Of a stretch of 7,395 nt of DNA, positions 1 to 6,967 are shown one piece after another. Below the pieces are notes generated by a model. It was not told the DNA's origin. It did no database searches and saw nothing but the letters and a program-made list of their open reading frames with translations. The position numbers were made by a program, and so were the translations under genes. The stretch is from Bryobacterales bacterium. Lineage in GTDB: Bacteria > Acidobacteriota > Terriglobia > Bryobacterales > Bryobacteraceae. The first letter of the stretch is position 1; every line of letters starts with the position of its first letter. The stretch lies in contig PKYZ01000813.1 of the NCBI GenBank assembly GCA_003132865.1, positions 4,488 through 11,882 of the forward strand. The letters run 5' to 3'.

Positions 1-1169
1 TTGTGCATGAGGTTGTCGGTGTAATATGGCGCCGGGTGGCAACTGGCGCAGCGGCCTTTCCCGAAGAAAATCTCCTCGCCGTGCAGTTCGTTGGCGGTCG
101 CTTTCCTGGGGTCGAGTCTGCCTTGAACGTTCAGCTTTGGGGCCGGCGGGAAATCTAACAGCTCTTGGAACTCGGCCATGAAGTGGACCTGGCTTCCCCG
201 ATCGAGAATGTTGACGCCCTTCTTCGTCGCGATGACCGGGTCACCGTCGAAGTAAGCGGCGCGCTGCTCAAACTCGGTGAAATCTTCCACGGTCTTCAGA
301 GCGCGCTGGGAGCCGAACAGGCGCTGCTCGTTTACGCCGCGCAAGGAGGGTGTGTTGATACGGTGCCGGTACTCCTGAGGCCGGATGTCGCCGACCAGGT
401 GGGTGGCGCGGTTGGTGTGGCCGTTGGCGTGGCAGTCCAGGCAGGCTACACCGCGGCTGGCATGAGCGCTGCGGCGATCCTCGGTCTGATTAAACTGCTG
501 TTGCGGAAACGGCGTAAGAAGCAGGCGGAGGCCTTCGATCTGCTTGGGGTTGAGGATGCCGTTGAAGAGCTCGTAGTAGTTGTCGAGGGTGACGAGCTTG
601 TCTTTCGAGACATCGCCGAGGTCGGGGCGGGTGGTGAGATAGATGGGCGGCGGGAATTCGGGGAGGAATTGGTCGGGAATGTCGAAGTCGAGGTCGAAGC
701 GCGTCAGGTCGCGGTTCTCCTGCTTGTTCATCTCATCGATTTCGAATTTCGGGAAGACCATTCCGCCCTCCGGATGGTTGGGGTGAGGGAGGGGAAGGAA
801 GCCGGCGGGGAAGATGTCGCGAGCTTTGATCTGGTCGGGAGTCAGTTTCGCCAACTGGTCCCAGGTCACTCCCGGGGCTAGTTTGACGCGCACGCCCTGC
901 TGGATCGGCTTGCTACGCGACATGGTGACGCCGGGCGCGGGATTGTTGCTTAGGTCATAACGCTCTTCGAGGAGCGTCATTTGACGTTTCATGATGTCGG
1001 CCTTGGCGGCTGACATGCGGGTCATGATGGTTGCAAAGGCCTCATGGATATCGACGGGGGCGTAGCTGGAGGGCCGCATATTGTCCTGGGCCAGGAGAAC
1101 GCCCACTCCAACGACGAGGCCCGCAGTCATGATCGAGGCCTGGATCATCGAACGTGTCTTGATTCGCAT
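1..1169 (-). CDS. Secreted dihaem cytochrome c (cytochrome c peroxidase/MauG-like), C-terminus cut by window edge
   Basis: The first 389 codons are present and the reading frame is open through base 1. The ATG at 1169 is preceded by GGAAGGAG with a short spacer, a good ribosome-binding site. Residues 1-32 form a Sec signal peptide (basic MRIKTR, then hydrophobic AGLVVGVGVLLA, then Q). Two c-type haem sites are visible: CLDCH at 243-247 and CASCH at 374-378. Between them is TPSLRG (273-278), typical of the cytochrome c peroxidase/MauG superfamily, where such periplasmic dihaem proteins carry out peroxide reduction or other redox chemistry. The region before the first haem site (about 210 mature residues, rich in Pro, Asp and Glu) is much longer than in classical CcpA or MauG, so this is a separate subfamily. 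Its substrate cannot be told from the sequence. Family placement is solid; enzymatic role is not. Confidence 0.92.
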   Translation of the reverse strand, partial: MRIKTRSMIQASIMTAGLVVGVGVLLAQDNMRPSSYAPVDIHEAFATIMTRMSAAKADIMKRQMTLLEERYDLSNNPAPGVTMSRSKPIQQGVRVKLAPGVTWDQLAKLTPDQIKARDIFPAGFLPLPHPNHPEGGMVFPKFEIDEMNKQENRDLTRFDLDFDIPDQFLPEFPPPIYLTTRPDLGDVSKDKLVTLDNYYELFNGILNPKQIEGLRLLLTPFPQQQFNQTEDRRSAHASRGVACLDCHANGHTNRATHLVGDIRPQEYRHRINTPSLRGVNEQRLFGSQRALKTVEDFTEFEQRAAYFDGDPVIATKKGVNILDRGSQVHFMAEFQELLDFPPAPKLNVQGRLDPRKATANELHGEEIFFGKGRCASCHPAPYYTDNLMH

Positions 1170-1181
1170 AATCTCCTTCCG

Positions 1182-1220
1182 CACCCGGGCGATGCTCCGC
1201 CAACGAGCCAGGCCCGGGTG
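1182..1220 (-). promoter_or_regulatory. Hairpin in the leader of the dihaem cytochrome gene
   Basis: CACCCGGGC (1182-1190) and GCCCGGGTG (1212-1220) are perfect 9-base inverted repeats around a 21-base loop. The structure ends directly next to the ribosome-binding site of the gene starting at 1169, so in mRNA it could affect translation initiation or stability. As DNA it could be an operator. The role is inferred; the repeat itself is seen. Confidence 0.45.
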
Positions 1221-1985
1221 GTTTGGTCCAGGATTTCCGTTTTGGCCTCCTGGCCCAGCAGCCATTATATATCCAATCGCCCCAATGAGAGCCGGTTGTC
1301 TCATCCTTCAATTCAATTCCGAGCGTGCTCTGGCGTGAGGGGAACGCGAGCCAGCTTGCCGAGGCAGCAACACCCGGCCCCAGACCCGTGCCGGGAAACG
1401 CCACTCCTACCGGTTCGACGATCTTCGGCGCTTAAGAAGGCCCCCATCTCGTCCGCCTGGCCCCGGAAGTACTGCGCGTCCCGCGCGGACGAAGAGATCT
1501 GGGGGGGATCAGAGCGCCGCAATCGTTCCGAACAGCCGCTTGGCCAAATTGGGGATGCTGCAGGCCAAATTGCAGAGAGTCGAGAGGGAACTGCACCGGC
1601 GCGCCCTGAGGAGTCGCGCGGCGCCAGCGAATCGCGGAGTTGGGGCTTCATGACGCGACAGGCGACTTTCGATAGGACGACGTTGTCAGGCAATATAGGC
1701 CTTTTTCCGAGTGGCCGGTAATTCGACCGGAGCACCGAATTGCGGCCATAAGGTTGGTAAACGCTGCGCGACTTTCGGCGGGTAATGGTCCTCAAAGACG
1801 GCGCACCCAGATCAACCGCACACAGTGGACCATGCACCCGTCGGTTCATTGAAAACGCCGAGAAGCCTCTTTGCGCACGTGCCGGGAGCGAAGCGCTGCG
1901 CACCAACGCGAGAAAACGACGTAATAGTTCCCGTCCGCGCGTGATCGCCCGCGATCCGTTCGCCGGGGTTCGGCGGCCAGCCCCG
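1221..1985. other. Stretch without a convincing gene
   Basis: Apart from the TATAAT box, nothing here could be assigned. Open frames exist on both strands but they lack recognisable domains and good ribosome-binding sites, and they mostly continue as out-of-frame readings of the neighbouring genes. One plus-strand frame ending at the TGA near 1652 reads as a short amphipathic helix with heptad spacing (see findings) and might be the tail of a decayed gene. No transfer RNA, insertion-sequence ends or strong rho-independent terminator was recognised. Confidence 0.4.
1264..1269 (-). promoter_or_regulatory. Candidate -10 box (TATAAT) for the dihaem cytochrome gene
   Basis: The minus strand reads a perfect TATAAT inside an A/T-rich GATATATAAT stretch in otherwise GC-rich DNA. 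It lies about 95 bases upstream of the ATG at 1169, leaving a leader that contains the 1182-1220 hairpin. No convincing TTGACA-like -35 box is seen at 16-18 bases spacing, so this is only a candidate. Confidence 0.35.
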
Positions 1986-3848
1986 TCAGCGGCCCGCGAG
2001 GGACAGCCGGAACGCGGCCATCTCCTGGCCGTTGCGAACCAGCAGGACGTCACCGGCCAGAACCGGGTGGTTCCAGGTCTTGCCCTCGAGCGCCGGGAAC
2101 CGCGCGAGCTCCGTGAACTGATCGGGGATCGCCCGGACCAGCGCCAGCTCACCCTCTTCCGACAACACCAGAAGCAAGTCCTGATCGGGCAGCAGGACGA
2201 GCTGGCCGTTGCCGTAGCGTCCGCCCTTCCACTTGCGCTTGCCGTCCTTGAGGTCGATGCACGCGAGGATGCTGCCGTCGAAGCCGAAGGCATAGCCATC
2301 ATGAACGACGAAGTCGTTGAAGTAGGGCTTCAGCCCATTCGAGGTCCAGCGCTCTTCGACGGTCCATCCGCCGGGTCCACGCGCGACCGCGAGGCGGCGC
2401 GTGCCGCTGCTGTCGCTGACGCTGATCAGGATGTCGCCGTCCGCGGTCAGGGCCGGCTGCACGATGGGGTAGCCTGGCCATGGGTGCTCCCAGAGCAGCG
2501 TGCCGTCGGCGAGCGCGACGCTGGTCGCGCCGGCTTCGCTCAAAAGCAGGACCTGCTGGACTCCGTCGATGGTCAATAGATGCGGCGAGCTGTAGCTCAC
2601 GCCGTGGGCCGGGCCGACCCAGCGCCGGGCTCCGGTGGCGCGGTCATAAGCGGCGAGCTGGCCGGCGACGCCGACGATGAGGACATCGCCGACCACCAAC
2701 GGCGAGCTCGCGAATCCCCATTGCGGACTCTTCATGCCGGTGTCGGACGCCGCGTTGTGCGACCACACGACGGCACCGTCACGGGCGTTGAGCACGTTCA
2801 GGATTCCGGTGGCGCCAAATGTGTACACGCGACCATTGCTGAGGGTCGGCGTCGCGCGCGGACCGGCGCCGCCATTCGACTCCCAGAAGCGGGACGTGTC
2901 GCGGTGTGCCCACACCGGCTCGCCGCTGGTCAGTTTGTAGCAGGCGACGACCTCATCGGGACCGCGCTGCTCTTGGGTGTAGATGAGGCCGCCGCGAACC
3001 GCGAAGGACGACCAGCCCGGTCCGACCGGCCGGCGCCATAGCGCGACCGGCGGCGACGCAGTCCAGTCGGTTTTGATCCGCACGCCGGGAATGACATCGT
3101 CGCGATGGGGTCCGCGAAAGCCTGGCCAGATGGGTCCCGTCTCCGCTTCCGCGGGAGCCGGCGGAAGCGCCACCGGCTCGTTGCCCGATTTGGCCACCAG
3201 CCGTTTCTCGGGAGTCTTCGCTGCTGCCGGAACCGGCGGAAGCGCCGCCGGCTCGTTGCCGGATTGGGCCACGGGCCGTTTCTCGGGAGTCTCCGCTGCT
3301 GCCCGAACCGGCGGGAGCGCCCCTGGCTCGTTGCCGGATTTGGCCATGAGCCGTTCCTCCGGAGTCTTCGCCCACCGCCAGTGCAAGTCGTTATGGAAGC
3401 TGCCGGCGGTGAAGCCACCGGTCCGGACGAGCGTCAACACTCCACACGCGAGCAGGATGGTCGCGACCATCGACACGCGCCGGGGTCCGTCCGGGAGACG
3501 ACGGGTGGCCACCGCCCACGCGACGAGGGCGAGGCTCAGGATTGGGATCGCCAAGATGGGGAACAACATCCCTTGCGCCCCAGTCGCAATCGACACGTCA
3601 ACGATGCGCTTTGTCGCGAACAGCACGACGATCATCAGGCCGACGGCGCCCAAGCGCTCGGACCAAGGCGCCCGGCTAAGGAACAACCACCACAGGACGA
3701 TGGCCAACCCGCCGACGAGTTCCCCAAGCAATCCAAAGAGCGCGGCTTCGGGCACGACGGCAGGGACGGCAAACCTTACCAGCCACTGCAGGATCACGAT
3801 GACCACGCCGGGCCACAGCCGGAGCGGCTTCCTAGCCGAATTTTTCAT
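1986..3848 (-). CDS. Membrane-anchored PQQ-like beta-propeller protein
   Basis: Protein of 620 residues. The N-terminal 145 residues contain about five hydrophobic helices (near 11-33, 35-58, 65-85, 92-114 and 125-143). A linker of three 25-residue repeats follows (162-236). From WPGFRGP (241-247) to the end is a beta-propeller with PQQ/WD-like blades; recurring phrases such as YDRATGARRW, LADGTLLWEHPW and IDLKDGKRKW are typical blade endings. The fold is that of PQQ-binding-like repeat proteins, but quinoprotein dehydrogenase active-site features were not identified, so a scaffold or sensor role is as likely as catalysis. The propeller is presumably periplasmic, tethered to the inner membrane. 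The ATG at 3848 has only a weak GGGA upstream. No gene is close enough to make an operon obvious. Confidence 0.9.
   Translation of the reverse strand: MKNSARKPLRLWPGVVIVILQWLVRFAVPAVVPEAALFGLLGELVGGLAIVLWWLFLSRAPWSERLGAVGLMIVVLFATKRIVDVSIATGAQGMLFPILAIPILSLALVAWAVATRRLPDGPRRVSMVATILLACGVLTLVRTGGFTAGSFHNDLHWRWAKTPEERLMAKSGNEPGALPPVRAAAETPEKRPVAQSGNEPAALPPVPAAAKTPEKRLVAKSGNEPVALPPAPAEAETGPIWPGFRGPHRDDVIPGVRIKTDWTASPPVALWRRPVGPGWSSFAVRGGLIYTQEQRGPDEVVACYKLTSGEPVWAHRDTSRFWESNGGAGPRATPTLSNGRVYTFGATGILNVLNARDGAVVWSHNAASDTGMKSPQWGFASSPLVVGDVLIVGVAGQLAAYDRATGARRWVGPAHGVSYSSPHLLTIDGVQQVLLLSEAGATSVALADGTLLWEHPWPGYPIVQPALTADGDILISVSDSSGTRRLAVARGPGGWTVEERWTSNGLKPYFNDFVVHDGYAFGFDGSILACIDLKDGKRKWKGGRYGNGQLVLLPDQDLLLVLSEEGELALVRAIPDQFTELARFPALEGKTWNHPVLAGDVLLVRNGQEMAAFRLSLAGR
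3141..3365 (-). repeat. Three tandem 75-base repeats coding a 25-residue Pro/Ala linker
   Basis: The units are 3291-3365, 3216-3290 and 3141-3215 in transcription order. Each codes a variant of TPEKRLVAKSGNEPVALPP plus a five- or six-residue Ala-rich tail (protein residues 162-186, 187-211, 212-236). GGCTCGTTGCC recurs at exactly 75-base intervals on the plus strand (3175, 3250, 3325). The array sits between the membrane helices and the propeller and looks like a flexible, copy-number-variable spacer. Confidence 0.95.
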
Positions 3849-4387: not shown

Positions 4388-4505
4388 GCCTTGACGACTC
4401 TACACAGCTTCTGCTCCCAAGCGGGTGCCCGGGCGGCGGATACCCGCGGCAGTCCAGGCCCCCAATGGGGCCTTCTATGGGACAACCTTGTTTGGCGGGA
4501 CCAGT
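4388..4505 (+). pseudogene. Frameshifted remnant of a GloVer (TIGR03803-type) repeat
   Basis: Read across three frames, this stretch gives one nearly complete GloVer repeat: ALTTLHSFCSQ (from 4388), then SGCPGGGYP (frame of 4420), then AAVQAPNGAFYGTTLFGGTS (frame of 4449, ending about 4505). These match the usual order LYSF-CSQSGC-DGxYP-GLVQAxxGNFYGTTxxGG of GloVer repeat proteins. Each of the two frame changes is explained by loss of one base. No start codon or other repeat is attached, so it is a dead fragment. Its last 31 bases overlap the 3' end of the antisense thioredoxin gene. GloVer proteins are secreted or cell-surface proteins of unknown function, common in Acidobacteria and Verrucomicrobia. 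Confidence 0.75.
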
Positions 4506-4969
4506 AGTTCTTTGAGTACATCCTCGAAGACATTCCCTTCTTCGAAGCCGACTACCTTCTTTCTGACGATCCCTGTGCGGTCCGCCAAAATTGTTGCTGG
4601 TATTCCGAGCACGTTGTAACTGTCAACGTTCATGCCGTTGATGAGCAGGGGGTACGTGATTCCGTATTTCTTGGCGAACCTGCGGACTTGGGCTGGACTG
4701 GAATCCAGCGCGATCCCGACCACTACCAATCCGCGACTCCTGTACCTGCGGTACAGGTCTTCGTAGCCCGGCATTTCTTTCTTGCATGGACCGCACCAAG
4801 TGGCCCAGAAATCCAGCAGGATCACTTTGCCCTGGAACTGCCGAAGCGCGACTGTGCGGCCGGAGGTGTCGGGCAACGAAAAATCCGGGACTCGATCCAC
4901 CGGTGCTTGCGGGCGGAGCGGTATGGTGAACGCAAGACACGACACGAACAGAAGGATTCCGCGCTTCAG
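4475..4969 (-). CDS. TlpA-like exported thioredoxin (WCGPC), probable CTG start
   Basis: Thioredoxin-fold protein of the TlpA/ResA/AhpC-TSA group, which reduces disulfides (here perhaps selenium pairs) outside the cytoplasm. Counting from the CTG at 4969 (164 residues), the active site WCGPC has its cysteines at 59 and 62, and the cis-proline loop GIPAT has Pro at 124. PDFSLPDTSG before the active site is the usual TlpA entry. An alternative GTG at 4945 has no ribosome-binding site and would cut the hydrophobic segment in half. Starting at CTG gives a full signal peptide (LKRG, then ILLFVSCLAFTIPL, then RPQA) and a GGAG eight bases upstream; the CTG overlaps the upstream TGA as CTGA, implying translational coupling. 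The last nine or so residues are antisense to the GloVer remnant and may be acquired. Function class is sure; start codon is an inference. Confidence 0.9.
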   Translation of the reverse strand: MKRGILLFVSCLAFTIPLRPQAPVDRVPDFSLPDTSGRTVALRQFQGKVILLDFWATWCGPCKKEMPGYEDLYRRYRSRGLVVVGIALDSSPAQVRRFAKKYGITYPLLINGMNVDSYNVLGIPATILADRTGIVRKKVVGFEEGNVFEDVLKELLVPPNKVVP

Positions 4970-5490
4970 TTCAGAATCTCCAATATCTCCAATTGCGATG
5001 TGTCCGGCGTCTTAGGCTTCTTGCCTGCGGGCTTCTTGTACAGCAGTCCCCGGATCTTCACGGCTCCGACAAGCGCTCCCGGCTCCTCGAGTTTCCTCGA
5101 AATCGCGTTTGGCTTCACCGGGAATGACAGATTATCGCCAATCTTGAATATCATTCCGGTTGCGCCATCCTTCACGATTTCTCCGCTGGCAATGATGTCC
5201 ATCTCCGATACGGATACACCGCTGTCGTAGACGGCCTTGAAAATGGCGGAAGGATCAAACTTGGAATCCTCCTTGCGGAAGATCACCACCTTCCCATCCA
5301 CCAAACTGACTTCCACTTTTTGAACACCAGCCTGGCGTCCCAGGTGCTGTTGCACCCCGTAGGCTCAAAGGTTTCACGTCATGCCTTCGACGCGCAACTC
5401 AATCCGCTCGATGCCCGACTCGGCATCAATCAAACCGGGTGCCAATGTCGCCGCAGCGAGCGCCATGTACATCAATCTTCTTCTCAACAT
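4966..5490 (-). CDS. Exported HMA-domain selenoprotein with U-x-x-U in place of C-x-x-C
   Basis: Product of 174 residues if two in-frame TGA codons (5376-5374 and 5367-5365; residues 39 and 42) are read as selenocysteine. The ATG at 5490 follows a perfect AAGGAGG at 10 bases. Residues 1-23 are a signal peptide (MLRRRLMYMALAAATLAPG). Residues 27-95 form an HMA (MerP/CopZ-like) fold: IERIELRVEGMT-U-NL-U-AYGVQQHL, then GVQKVEVSLVDGKVVI, then FKAVYDSGV. Both TGAs sit exactly on the metal-binding cysteines of GMTCxxC. The C-terminal 75 residues (GEIVKDGATG to the end) are beta-rich and Lys/Pro-containing, possibly OB-like, unrecognised. It is the second gene of an operon, 23 bases after a beta-barrel gene and overlapping a thioredoxin gene. 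It probably binds a soft metal or acts as a redox pair in the periplasm. A start at the internal GTG 5355 would lose the signal peptide, first strand and motif, so is unlikely. Confidence 0.87.
5328..5349 (-). promoter_or_regulatory. Candidate bacterial SECIS hairpin
   Basis: On the minus strand: CAG, a two-base CA bulge, CCTGG, loop GACG, CCAGG, CTG. This gives eight pairs with one bulge. The apical loop starts 25 nt after the second TGA (5365) and 34 nt after the first (5374), and its first base is G. As I remember the usual bacterial SECIS search rule (loop 3-14 nt with G in the first two positions, upper stem 4-16 pairs, loop 16-37 nt from UGA), one hairpin satisfies it for both codons. 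It lies inside the coding region, as bacterial SECIS elements do. An overlapping alternative stem (GGTGC-AACA-GCACC, 5356-5343) lacks a loop G. Confidence 0.65.
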
Positions 5491-5500
5491 GCTGACAAGT

Positions 5501-5507
5501 CCTCCTT
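5501..5507 (-). promoter_or_regulatory. Ribosome-binding site deciding the selenoprotein start
   Basis: A perfect AAGGAGG stands 10 bases before the ATG at 5490. It is the strongest ribosome-binding site in the window and shows that translation begins upstream of the two TGA codons, not at the internal GTG. Confidence 0.85.
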
Positions 5508-5513
5508 CCAGCT

Positions 5514-6404
5514 TCAATGCCGGAATTGAAACTGCTTCCCGATCCCGAAGCTGATGTGCCTATCCGTCGTGTCTTGAATGCCATTGTTCCGCTGAACGAC
5601 GGGAAAATCGATGCCGAACCACAACTCCAGCCCCCCGCGCGGACTGAAGTAGGTGGCCGCTCCCACGCTGACAATTTCGCCTCCCGTGTCCGCTTGCCGC
5701 GCCATCGCAACTCTATCGTATCCTGCATGCGTCCAGACGAGTTGGGGGCCGATCCACCATTCCCTGCCGACCGAGTGCGATTGGTAAGGACGATAAGGAA
5801 AATACAAGCGCGTATGCACGTCGTCCCCGAGTTTGGTTGCTTGTGTCCCCTCCGTCCGGTGGAGGTAGTCCACAGCGGCATCCGCCACAAGCTTTTTGAT
5901 GTTGAAGAGTCCCGTATAGGTGCCATTGAAACTCAAGAACAGATCCGTCGAACCGGAGCCCGGTTGCAAACTCACCGGAAGCAGCGCTCCGGAAGCATCG
6001 CGGAGATCGGTACGCCCGGTGGCGAACTTCACGCCCGCTCCAATGGAAGCCTGTGTGGTGCCGCGCGGTGAATCCAGGCGCAGAAAGCGATACTTTAGGT
6101 GGACCAGAGTATCGCCGAATCCAGTTCCGCCTGTATCGTTCAGGTGATTCGTGGCAATCGCCCCGACGGCCGTCAGTTCGAGGTCGCGGCGGATTCCTAA
6201 GGTTAGAAGCAGCGGTTGGCGCACTTCAAGCGTTGGCCGTATTCCTGGCGTTGCGGTCGCGCCCGAAGGCGCGGTTCTGAATATCGAATCCACAGCGTAC
6301 GAGAGCATGGCACCACCAGGGAAGATGGTATTTCCGGTCTCCGGCGTGGGTCCTTGACACCAAGCGATTGCCGCCGCGCACACGAAGAGACCGAACGTCC
6401 GCAA
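5514..6404 (-). CDS. Outer-membrane beta-barrel protein, transporter-like, first gene of selenoprotein operon
   Basis: Protein of 296 residues starting at TTG 6404. AGGAG (6414-6418) lies nine bases upstream, and an in-frame TGA two codons before the TTG leaves no earlier start. The signal peptide is MRTFGLFVCAAAIAWCQG. The mature part is a series of amphipathic strands with alternating hydrophobic residues (for example LVHLKYRFLRL, QASIGAGVKFATG, ELWFGIDFPVV), and it ends in ISFGIGKQFQFRH, an outer-membrane barrel type of ending. It resembles the loose group of outer-membrane 'transporter' proteins related to MetA-type phenol-degradation barrels; that family match is tentative. The next gene starts 23 bases downstream on the same strand, so it is very probably co-transcribed with the selenoprotein. 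It could carry a substrate or metal across the outer membrane for the periplasmic pair that follows, but no specific ligand is visible. Confidence 0.8.
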   Translation of the reverse strand: MRTFGLFVCAAAIAWCQGPTPETGNTIFPGGAMLSYAVDSIFRTAPSGATATPGIRPTLEVRQPLLLTLGIRRDLELTAVGAIATNHLNDTGGTGFGDTLVHLKYRFLRLDSPRGTTQASIGAGVKFATGRTDLRDASGALLPVSLQPGSGSTDLFLSFNGTYTGLFNIKKLVADAAVDYLHRTEGTQATKLGDDVHTRLYFPYRPYQSHSVGREWWIGPQLVWTHAGYDRVAMARQADTGGEIVSVGAATYFSPRGGLELWFGIDFPVVQRNNGIQDTTDRHISFGIGKQFQFRH

Positions 6405-6604: not shown

Positions 6605-6967
6605 GTGCTTTATGCCTTCACAGGGGGAACGGACGGCGGAATTCCCTACGGAGGTCTGGTTCGGGACGTGGCAGGCAACCTTTACGGCACCACGTATGCC
6701 GGTGGCGACCTAACGGGACCGAACGGCAGCTTTGGCGAGGGAGTGGTGTACAAGGTTGACCGGACCGGCAAAGAGACTGTCCTTTACTCCTTCACGGGCC
6801 TTTCGGACGGAGGGAACCCCGAAACGGGTCTGGTTTCGAACGCGGGCATCCCCGATTGCACCAGCTATGAGCTCTACGGGACCACCAGCAGCGGCGGCGA
6901 CCTAGGCTCAAGCCTATGCTACGCATACGGCTGCGGAGTGGTGTTCAAGCTCACGTTCCGTAAGTAA
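6605..6967 (+). CDS. GloVer repeat protein, 3' fragment (5' truncated)
   Basis: Two GloVer (Gloeo_Verruco, TIGR03803-type) repeats are clear in the 120 residues from GTG 6605. The first runs LYAFTGGTDGGIPYGGLV, GNLYGTTYAGGD, GVVYKVD (2-52). The second runs LYSFTGLSDGGNPETGLV, ELYGTTSSGGD, GVVFKL (60-116). It then ends at a natural TAA (6965). The repeat pattern extends upstream of the GTG: the frame is open from 6542 and reads WLDHTGKETVLYAFTG, the end of a preceding repeat, before meeting TGA at 6539. The AAGGAG before GTG is only three bases away, and full proteins of this type have a signal peptide and many more repeats. It is therefore probably the 3' remnant of a broken gene and not a working short gene. 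Normal function is unknown; these are secreted surface-type proteins. Confidence 0.75.
   Translation: MLYAFTGGTDGGIPYGGLVRDVAGNLYGTTYAGGDLTGPNGSFGEGVVYKVDRTGKETVLYSFTGLSDGGNPETGLVSNAGIPDCTSYELYGTTSSGGDLGSSLCYAYGCGVVFKLTFRK

Follow-up and report, generated by a model that had tools for sequence, protein, structure and literature searches.

The locus and its gene product

The stretch of DNA analysed here, hereafter called the window, comprises 7,395 nucleotides from a Bryobacterales bacterium. On its minus strand, a frame of 174 codons plus a terminal TGA runs from 5490 to 4966 and reads MLRRRLMYMALAAATLAPGLIDAESGIERIELRVEGMT-U-NL-U-AYGVQQHL... with both internal TGA codons taken as selenocysteine (Sec, U). 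The initial annotation had described this frame as intact, its sole internal stops being the TGA codons 39 and 42 on both cysteine positions of the HMA domain, had noted a ribosome-binding site in front of it, and had predicted that gene callers would report only a fragment of 129 residues starting at a GTG. Re-reading of the frame bore out all of this: the sequence AAGGAGG was found 10 nt before the ATG, and the fragment occupies positions 4966-5355. With C put for both TGAs, the product passes the Pfam HMA model (PF00403) with 33 bits against a cut-off of 24.8 over residues 32-83, and it has the metal motif GMxCxxC of this domain with Sec for Cys (GMTUNLU). The signal-like N-terminus suggests that the product is exported. 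The AlphaFold model of the protein (pLDDT 83.7) has oxidised MerP as its top match in Foldseek (1.1e-4). A small beta domain resembling an OB fold appears to come after the HMA domain, and the structural search with a model of the C-terminal domain gave no significant fold match. The features of the locus are compiled in Table 1.

Table 1. Features of the UxxU locus in the window
Feature	Position	Strand	Basis or remark
Putative UxxU HMA selenoprotein gene	4966..5490	-	Predicted Sec 39 and 42; frame, Pfam HMA, both TGAs in 25/25 relatives
UGA1, predicted Sec39, first Cys position of GMTCxxC	5374..5376	-	Frame and relatives
UGA2, predicted Sec42, second Cys position of GMTCxxC	5365..5367	-	Frame and relatives
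Ribosome-binding site AAGGAGG	5501..5507	-	10 nt to ATG 5490
Outer-membrane beta-barrel-like protein of family F0, encoded ahead of the UxxU gene	5514..6404	-	PF13557, 25.3 bits, cut-off 22
TlpA/ResA-like thioredoxin, WCGPC	4475..4945	-	AhpC-TSA 94.8 bits; ResA model 111.8, below its cut-off of 170
Hairpin 1 (GGGGUG CAACAG CACCUG)	5341..5358	-	Candidate spacer hairpin or SECIS for UGA1
Hairpin 2 (GGACGCC AGGCU GGUGUUC)	5322..5340	-	Candidate SECIS for UGA2

Three further regions of the window contain recognisable features. An incomplete gene at 3-1304 (minus strand) encodes CxxCH motifs and shows a weak, below-cut-off likeness to MauG-type and multihaem cytochromes. The minus strand at 1986-3848 encodes a protein of 620 residues that contains a PQQ-type beta-propeller and begins with a hydrophobic region; a Pro/Ala-rich stretch of this protein is, by eye, repeated about three times (roughly 3150-3370). 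On the plus strand, repeats of the NLYGTTYAGGD and LYGTTSSGGD type are encoded at 6605-6967, for which there was no Pfam match. A search of the window with Rfam returned two sub-threshold matches only, and no tRNA was found in it.

Conservation of the two UGA codons

A genome scan led to 26 related loci (L001-L026). One of them (L024) is cut by a contig end, and the other 25 (L001-L023, L025 and L026) include the upstream DNA. According to their record titles, the loci belong to Acidobacteria, Acidobacteriaceae, Acidobacteriales, Candidatus Acidiferrales, Sulfotelmatobacter or Sulfopaludibacter, the last of which we take to be acidobacterial. In all 25 loci with upstream DNA, both TGAs are in place within an intact surrounding frame, which reads a signal-like N-terminus followed by EMRVEGMT-UGA-NF-UGA-AYG. 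Both TGAs are also present in eight diverged members (L060, L061, L062, L064, L065, L066, L068 and L072), which came to light when 396 genomes of the phylum were sampled; 129 of these genomes gave some form of HMA match. The same sample yields members with one TGA (UxxC) and with none (CxxC), and the protein P0036 is a full-length homologue with C-x-x-C. The locus thereby shows what is expected of a bacterial selenoprotein gene, namely an in-frame UGA that is conserved in relatives and Cys in homologues. In a tree of 30 members, the UxxU, UxxC and CxxC states need four changes; several branches are long and the exact place of the window in this tree is unsure.

The initial annotation had argued against random decay of the gene, and indeed the TGAs occupy the same two places in the 25 loci and the eight diverged members. 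It had also proposed a search for homologues with CxxC or UxxU aligned to the TGAs, and relatives of both kinds were found, P0036 being the CxxC case. A sequencing error, which it had named as a possible objection, can be set aside because TGA/TGA recurs on 25 separate contigs. Moreover, the residues before UGA1 are conserved in the loci of the relatives while several third codon positions vary, and therefore the part of the gene upstream of the TGAs is under coding selection. A pseudogene was rejected given the positional conservation of both TGAs in 25/25 relatives and the conserved upstream residues. A global reassignment of UGA was rejected as well: mechanically chosen ORFs of at least 150 amino acids in the same loci end in 76 TGA, 66 TAG and 56 TAA codons, and since TGA stops are common there and the gene in the window itself ends in TGA, UGA is still an ordinary stop in these loci and not globally a sense codon.

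Two scans of viral contigs with the queries P0001 and A2 yielded no relative, and there was no tblastn match on plasmids. In four loci (L094, L104, L105 and L106), HMA genes of the UxxC type with a single UGA (GMDUxxC or GLAUPFC) were observed. A small membrane protein, MerT-like by eye, is encoded near the UxxC gene in L094, L104 and L105, and L094 has a CxxC paralogue in the same cluster. These four UxxC genes form a sister group that is probably a second unlisted group of selenoproteins. Several further readings of U, among them those in L096 (item 24), L097, L098 (item 3), L105 (item 5), L106 (items 13-14), L107, L108 and L110, were taken for artefacts of the read-through rule.

RNA hairpins downstream of the UGA codons

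The two hairpins were analysed in 33 UxxU sequences. The bacterial SECIS model, applied here in our own implementation, has a loop of 3-9 nt, a stem of 4-16 bp, a G in the first two loop places, a distance of 16-37 nt from the UGA and an MFE of -7.5 or lower (PMC13188914 section 5). For UGA2, these rules are satisfied in 31/33 sequences, including the window, and only L025 and L026 fail; among control TGAs, about 5% pass (4/75 terminal and 122/2497 out-of-frame codons). The loop of hairpin 2 is located 31-32 nt after UGA2 and reads AGUCU, AGGCU, AGGAU, UGGAU, UGGAA or UGGAG, which fits the G[G|U] loop of the model (PMC13188914 section 5). The codons +13 to +18 after UGA2, which form hairpin 2, are near-frozen in the 25 loci (CGC, CAG and GGC in 25/25, TCT in 19/19, CAA in 22/22 and GTT in 22/25), CGC being a six-fold degenerate codon, and most codons from +19 on are variable. 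Across the 33 sequences, 95.8% of the cells in hairpin 2 hold standard pairs, which none of 500 shuffles reached. The covariation in hairpin 2 is thin: most pairs have changes in one partner or none at all, and two pairs show double changes, a number that 61/500 shuffles reached.

Compared with 400 synonymous randomisations per sequence (n=33), the mean z was -2.9 for the hairpin pair, with -3.4 for hairpin 1 by itself and -2.0 for hairpin 2. For the window alone, the same comparison gave a z of -3.0 for hairpin 1, and for hairpin 2 the difference from the synonymous controls was not significant (z -1.3, p 0.12). Plain dinucleotide shuffles of the window stretch were unremarkable, with z values of only -0.6 to -1.5. 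The hairpin signal stems from conservation across the relatives. By eye, the arms of hairpin 1 change together across clades (GUG/CAC, GUC/GAC, GCC/GGC and AUC/GAU) with shifts of the register. RNAalifold on A4 recovered only three hairpin-1 pairs.

The SECIS function most likely belongs to hairpin 2. Its loop lies 40-41 nt after UGA1, beyond the 37-nt limit, and the rules for UGA1 are satisfied in 5/33 sequences, all of them diverged and the window not among them. It is quite possible, if short of an even chance, that the two UGAs are served by separate SECIS elements, UGA1 by hairpin 1 and UGA2 by hairpin 2, an arrangement that would affect only the detail of the single SECIS. The loop of hairpin 1 is found about 21 nt after UGA1, at 20-21 nt in the five diverged sequences that pass the rules, and hairpin 1 has the stronger mean z; however, in the register of the window this loop has no G in the first two places, and 28/33 sequences fail the rules for UGA1.

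We prefer one SECIS combined with a spacer hairpin, the two SECIS elements being a close rival. With a single SECIS, hairpin 2 would serve both UGAs. Given the footprint of the ribosome, hairpin 1 would be folded only while UGA1 is decoded, which would shorten the path to hairpin 2, and a ribosome that has moved on to UGA2 would melt it. In its full form, the proposal is that Acidobacteriota possess widespread exported metal carriers with two Sec residues and a two-hairpin device, in which the two UGAs share hairpin 2 as their SECIS. Hairpin 1 would act as a collapsible spacer, folded only with UGA1 in the A site so that a SECIS at a distance of 40 nt comes within reach, and melted at UGA2. 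Taken as a whole, we regard this proposal as tentative and less likely than not. If Sec is confirmed, two UGAs nine bases apart followed by tandem conserved hairpins would be a natural test of one SECIS serving two codons.

Gene neighbourhood and possible function

The UxxU gene is part of a conserved cluster in the order barrel, UxxU and TlpA. Among the 26 loci, the F0 barrel family is present in 24, the TlpA-like family F1 in 25 and a Cys-rich family F3 in 13. Members of F3 (for example at 4481-4831 in L016) and a protein encoded at 4495-4851 in L102 are small, exported-looking and rich in Cys, Met and His, and their genes head the cluster. The two of these proteins that were scanned had no match in Pfam or NCBIfam, and the group is possibly an undescribed metal-binding family. 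In L091 (5250-8902), a diverged UxxU gene is located amid genes for a second HMA-like protein, a TlpA, a YHS-like protein, a barrel and another HMA-like protein, which looks like a larger metal-handling island.

The fold and the gene order suggest a MerP/CopZ-like function in the binding of a soft metal. The paired selenols in the periplasm would most likely bind a soft metal ion, for example Cu(I), Hg(II) or Ag(I), and the adjoining TlpA/ResA thioredoxin would keep the U-x-x-U site reduced. Judging from fold and gene order, the outer-membrane barrel may be part of the same pathway. The same selenoprotein could instead be a redox enzyme, in which UxxU acts together with TlpA as a diselenide/dithiol-like oxidoreductase in periplasmic disulfide or peroxide chemistry and does not carry metal. 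The occurrence of the TlpA/ResA-like family in 25/26 loci is in line with such a role, and redox activity is assumed for most selenoprotein families (PMC9312934). However, the fold is that of HMA, MerP and CopZ proteins and not that of thioredoxin, the GMTxxxx motif is otherwise intact, and a neighbouring gene in L102 (CxxC) and L105 (UxxC) encodes a membrane protein whose likeness to MerT is weak and stays below threshold. A redox enzyme is therefore considered unlikely, and soft-metal binding is the function that we favour.

Selenocysteine machinery and alternative readings of the UGA codons

The initial annotation had named the selenocysteine machinery as a check on its proposal. The genes selA, selB, selC and selD were found in most host genomes of the closest relatives; this survey covers the genomes of the relatives only. 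Scores over the cut-off were obtained for selD in 26/26 host genomes, for selA in 24/26 and for selB in 22/26, and G002, which is below the cut-off for selA, has a piece of this gene at a contig end. Application of ARAGORN to the best RF01852 match per genome revealed a tRNA-Sec(UCA) in 20/26 host genomes, and in the other six the best match was an ordinary tRNA. The missing sel genes and tRNA-Sec genes may be due to incomplete MAG assemblies. Two tandem tRNA-Sec genes, about 260 bases apart from start to start, were observed in L046 (G015). In 19/26 host genomes, SelD has a UGA at its own Sec site, KAAG-U-A(A/S)KL (L114-L132), which provides an internal control for the decoding of UGA as Sec in these organisms; SelD of L111-L113 has Cys at that site. 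The co-occurrence of SelA with the gene hardly discriminates because SelA is common in the phylum (250/396 genomes). Among the matches listed, 8/9 genomes with a clear two-TGA match have SelA, the exception being G292; two weak two-TGA matches, which were left out of this count, are split, G361 with and G252 without SelA.

It is very improbable that a suppressor tRNA, such as a tRNA-Cys(UCA) of the selC* type or an allo-tRNA, decodes the UGAs as Cys or another residue. The review PMC7609411 records allo-tRNAs from Acidobacteria and selC* tRNA-Cys(UCA) from Desulfobacterales, but the phyla to which it assigns the selC* tRNA-Cys are Firmicutes, Thermodesulfobacteria, Nitrospirae and Proteobacteria. 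Moreover, most hosts possess SelA, SelB, a SelD with Sec and, by the tRNA search at the best RF01852 match per genome, a canonical tRNA-Sec.

A search with the read-through protein retrieved 75 relatives, and a profile search gave 3416 matching database proteins, of which 120 were examined and the remainder may include other HMA proteins. In 172/173 protein records from both searches, the protein starts at the codon for residue 46, four codons past UGA2, and the functional motif is missing because the start falls past it; the sole full-length record is P0036. Judging from the loci, these truncated records are probably cut versions of UxxU genes. Two of the 120 listed proteins are named 'MAG: heavy metal-associated domain-containing protein [Candidatus Acidiferrales bacterium]', and if Sec is confirmed, database fragments with the name 'heavy metal-associated domain-containing protein' need re-annotation. 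The position of these starts, together with a GTG at that codon in 25/33 sequences, would agree with two genes or a pseudogene in which translation stops at UGA1 and restarts four codons after UGA2 to give the 129-residue product, but this is hardly tenable: the eight diverged members have GTC, GCC, GCG, GCT or ATC there and no usual start, the codons before UGA1 vary synonymously and their residues are conserved, and in the AlphaFold model the HMA fold would be severed between the first strand and the middle of the first helix.

Sec at both UGAs is strongly supported by the comparison of the sequences. SelA, SelB, SelC and SelD would read both codons, which would result in an HMA domain of the MerP/CopZ type with a U-x-x-U site. 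It is highly probable that the gene encodes an exported selenoprotein in which both UGAs specify Sec by way of this machinery, with hairpin 2 as the likely SECIS and a predicted soft-metal HMA site that would be kept reduced by TlpA. Acidobacteriota are abundant in soils. If Sec is confirmed, these bacteria make large-scale use of selenium in the metal site of an exported protein.

Relation to known selenoproteins and metal-binding proteins

No description of this acidobacterial UxxU family was found in the paper listings and text passages that the literature searches covered. PMC13188914 contains no occurrence of 'acidobacter', and the table passages covered list NF041115 and no such acidobacterial family. 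Acidobacteria have been credited with four selenoproteins in three families (PMC1794560), and no HMA family is among the new selenoproteins in the passages covered of PMC12013277.

One of the closest described systems is the NCBIfam model NF041115 (UxxU_metal_bind, metal-binding (seleno)protein), a UxxU protein with two Sec residues according to PMC13188914. The window protein shares with it the HMA-like match and U-x-x-U. However, it reaches only 37.9 of the 95 bits required by this model of 74 positions, and it differs in its additional C-terminal domain, its signal-like N-terminus and the cluster with TlpA and the barrel. The periplasmic mercury-binding protein MerP (TIGR02052; PDB 1osd), the top Foldseek match, has the fold and the GMTxxxx motif in common with the window protein, which misses the cut-off (36.5 versus 92.55 bits) and has an extra C-terminal domain; moreover, no mer operon was seen in the window. 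The metal site of MerP consists of Cys. The best-scoring NCBIfam models are those of the CopZ family metallochaperone, NF047957 with 44.9 and NF033795 with 40 bits, against cut-offs of 85 and 91, respectively. CopZ is cytosolic and uses Cys. The MerT/CopZ fusion-like heavy metal transport selenoprotein NF045683 also contains an HMA domain, and its MerT part shows a weak likeness (21.7 bits) to the neighbour of the UxxC gene in L105. In contrast to the window protein, which scores 32.3 bits against a cut-off of 375, NF045683 is a fusion of 235 positions. UxxU HMA selenoproteins and the MerT/CopZ fusion selenoprotein are already on record, and the window protein lies far below the cut-offs of both.
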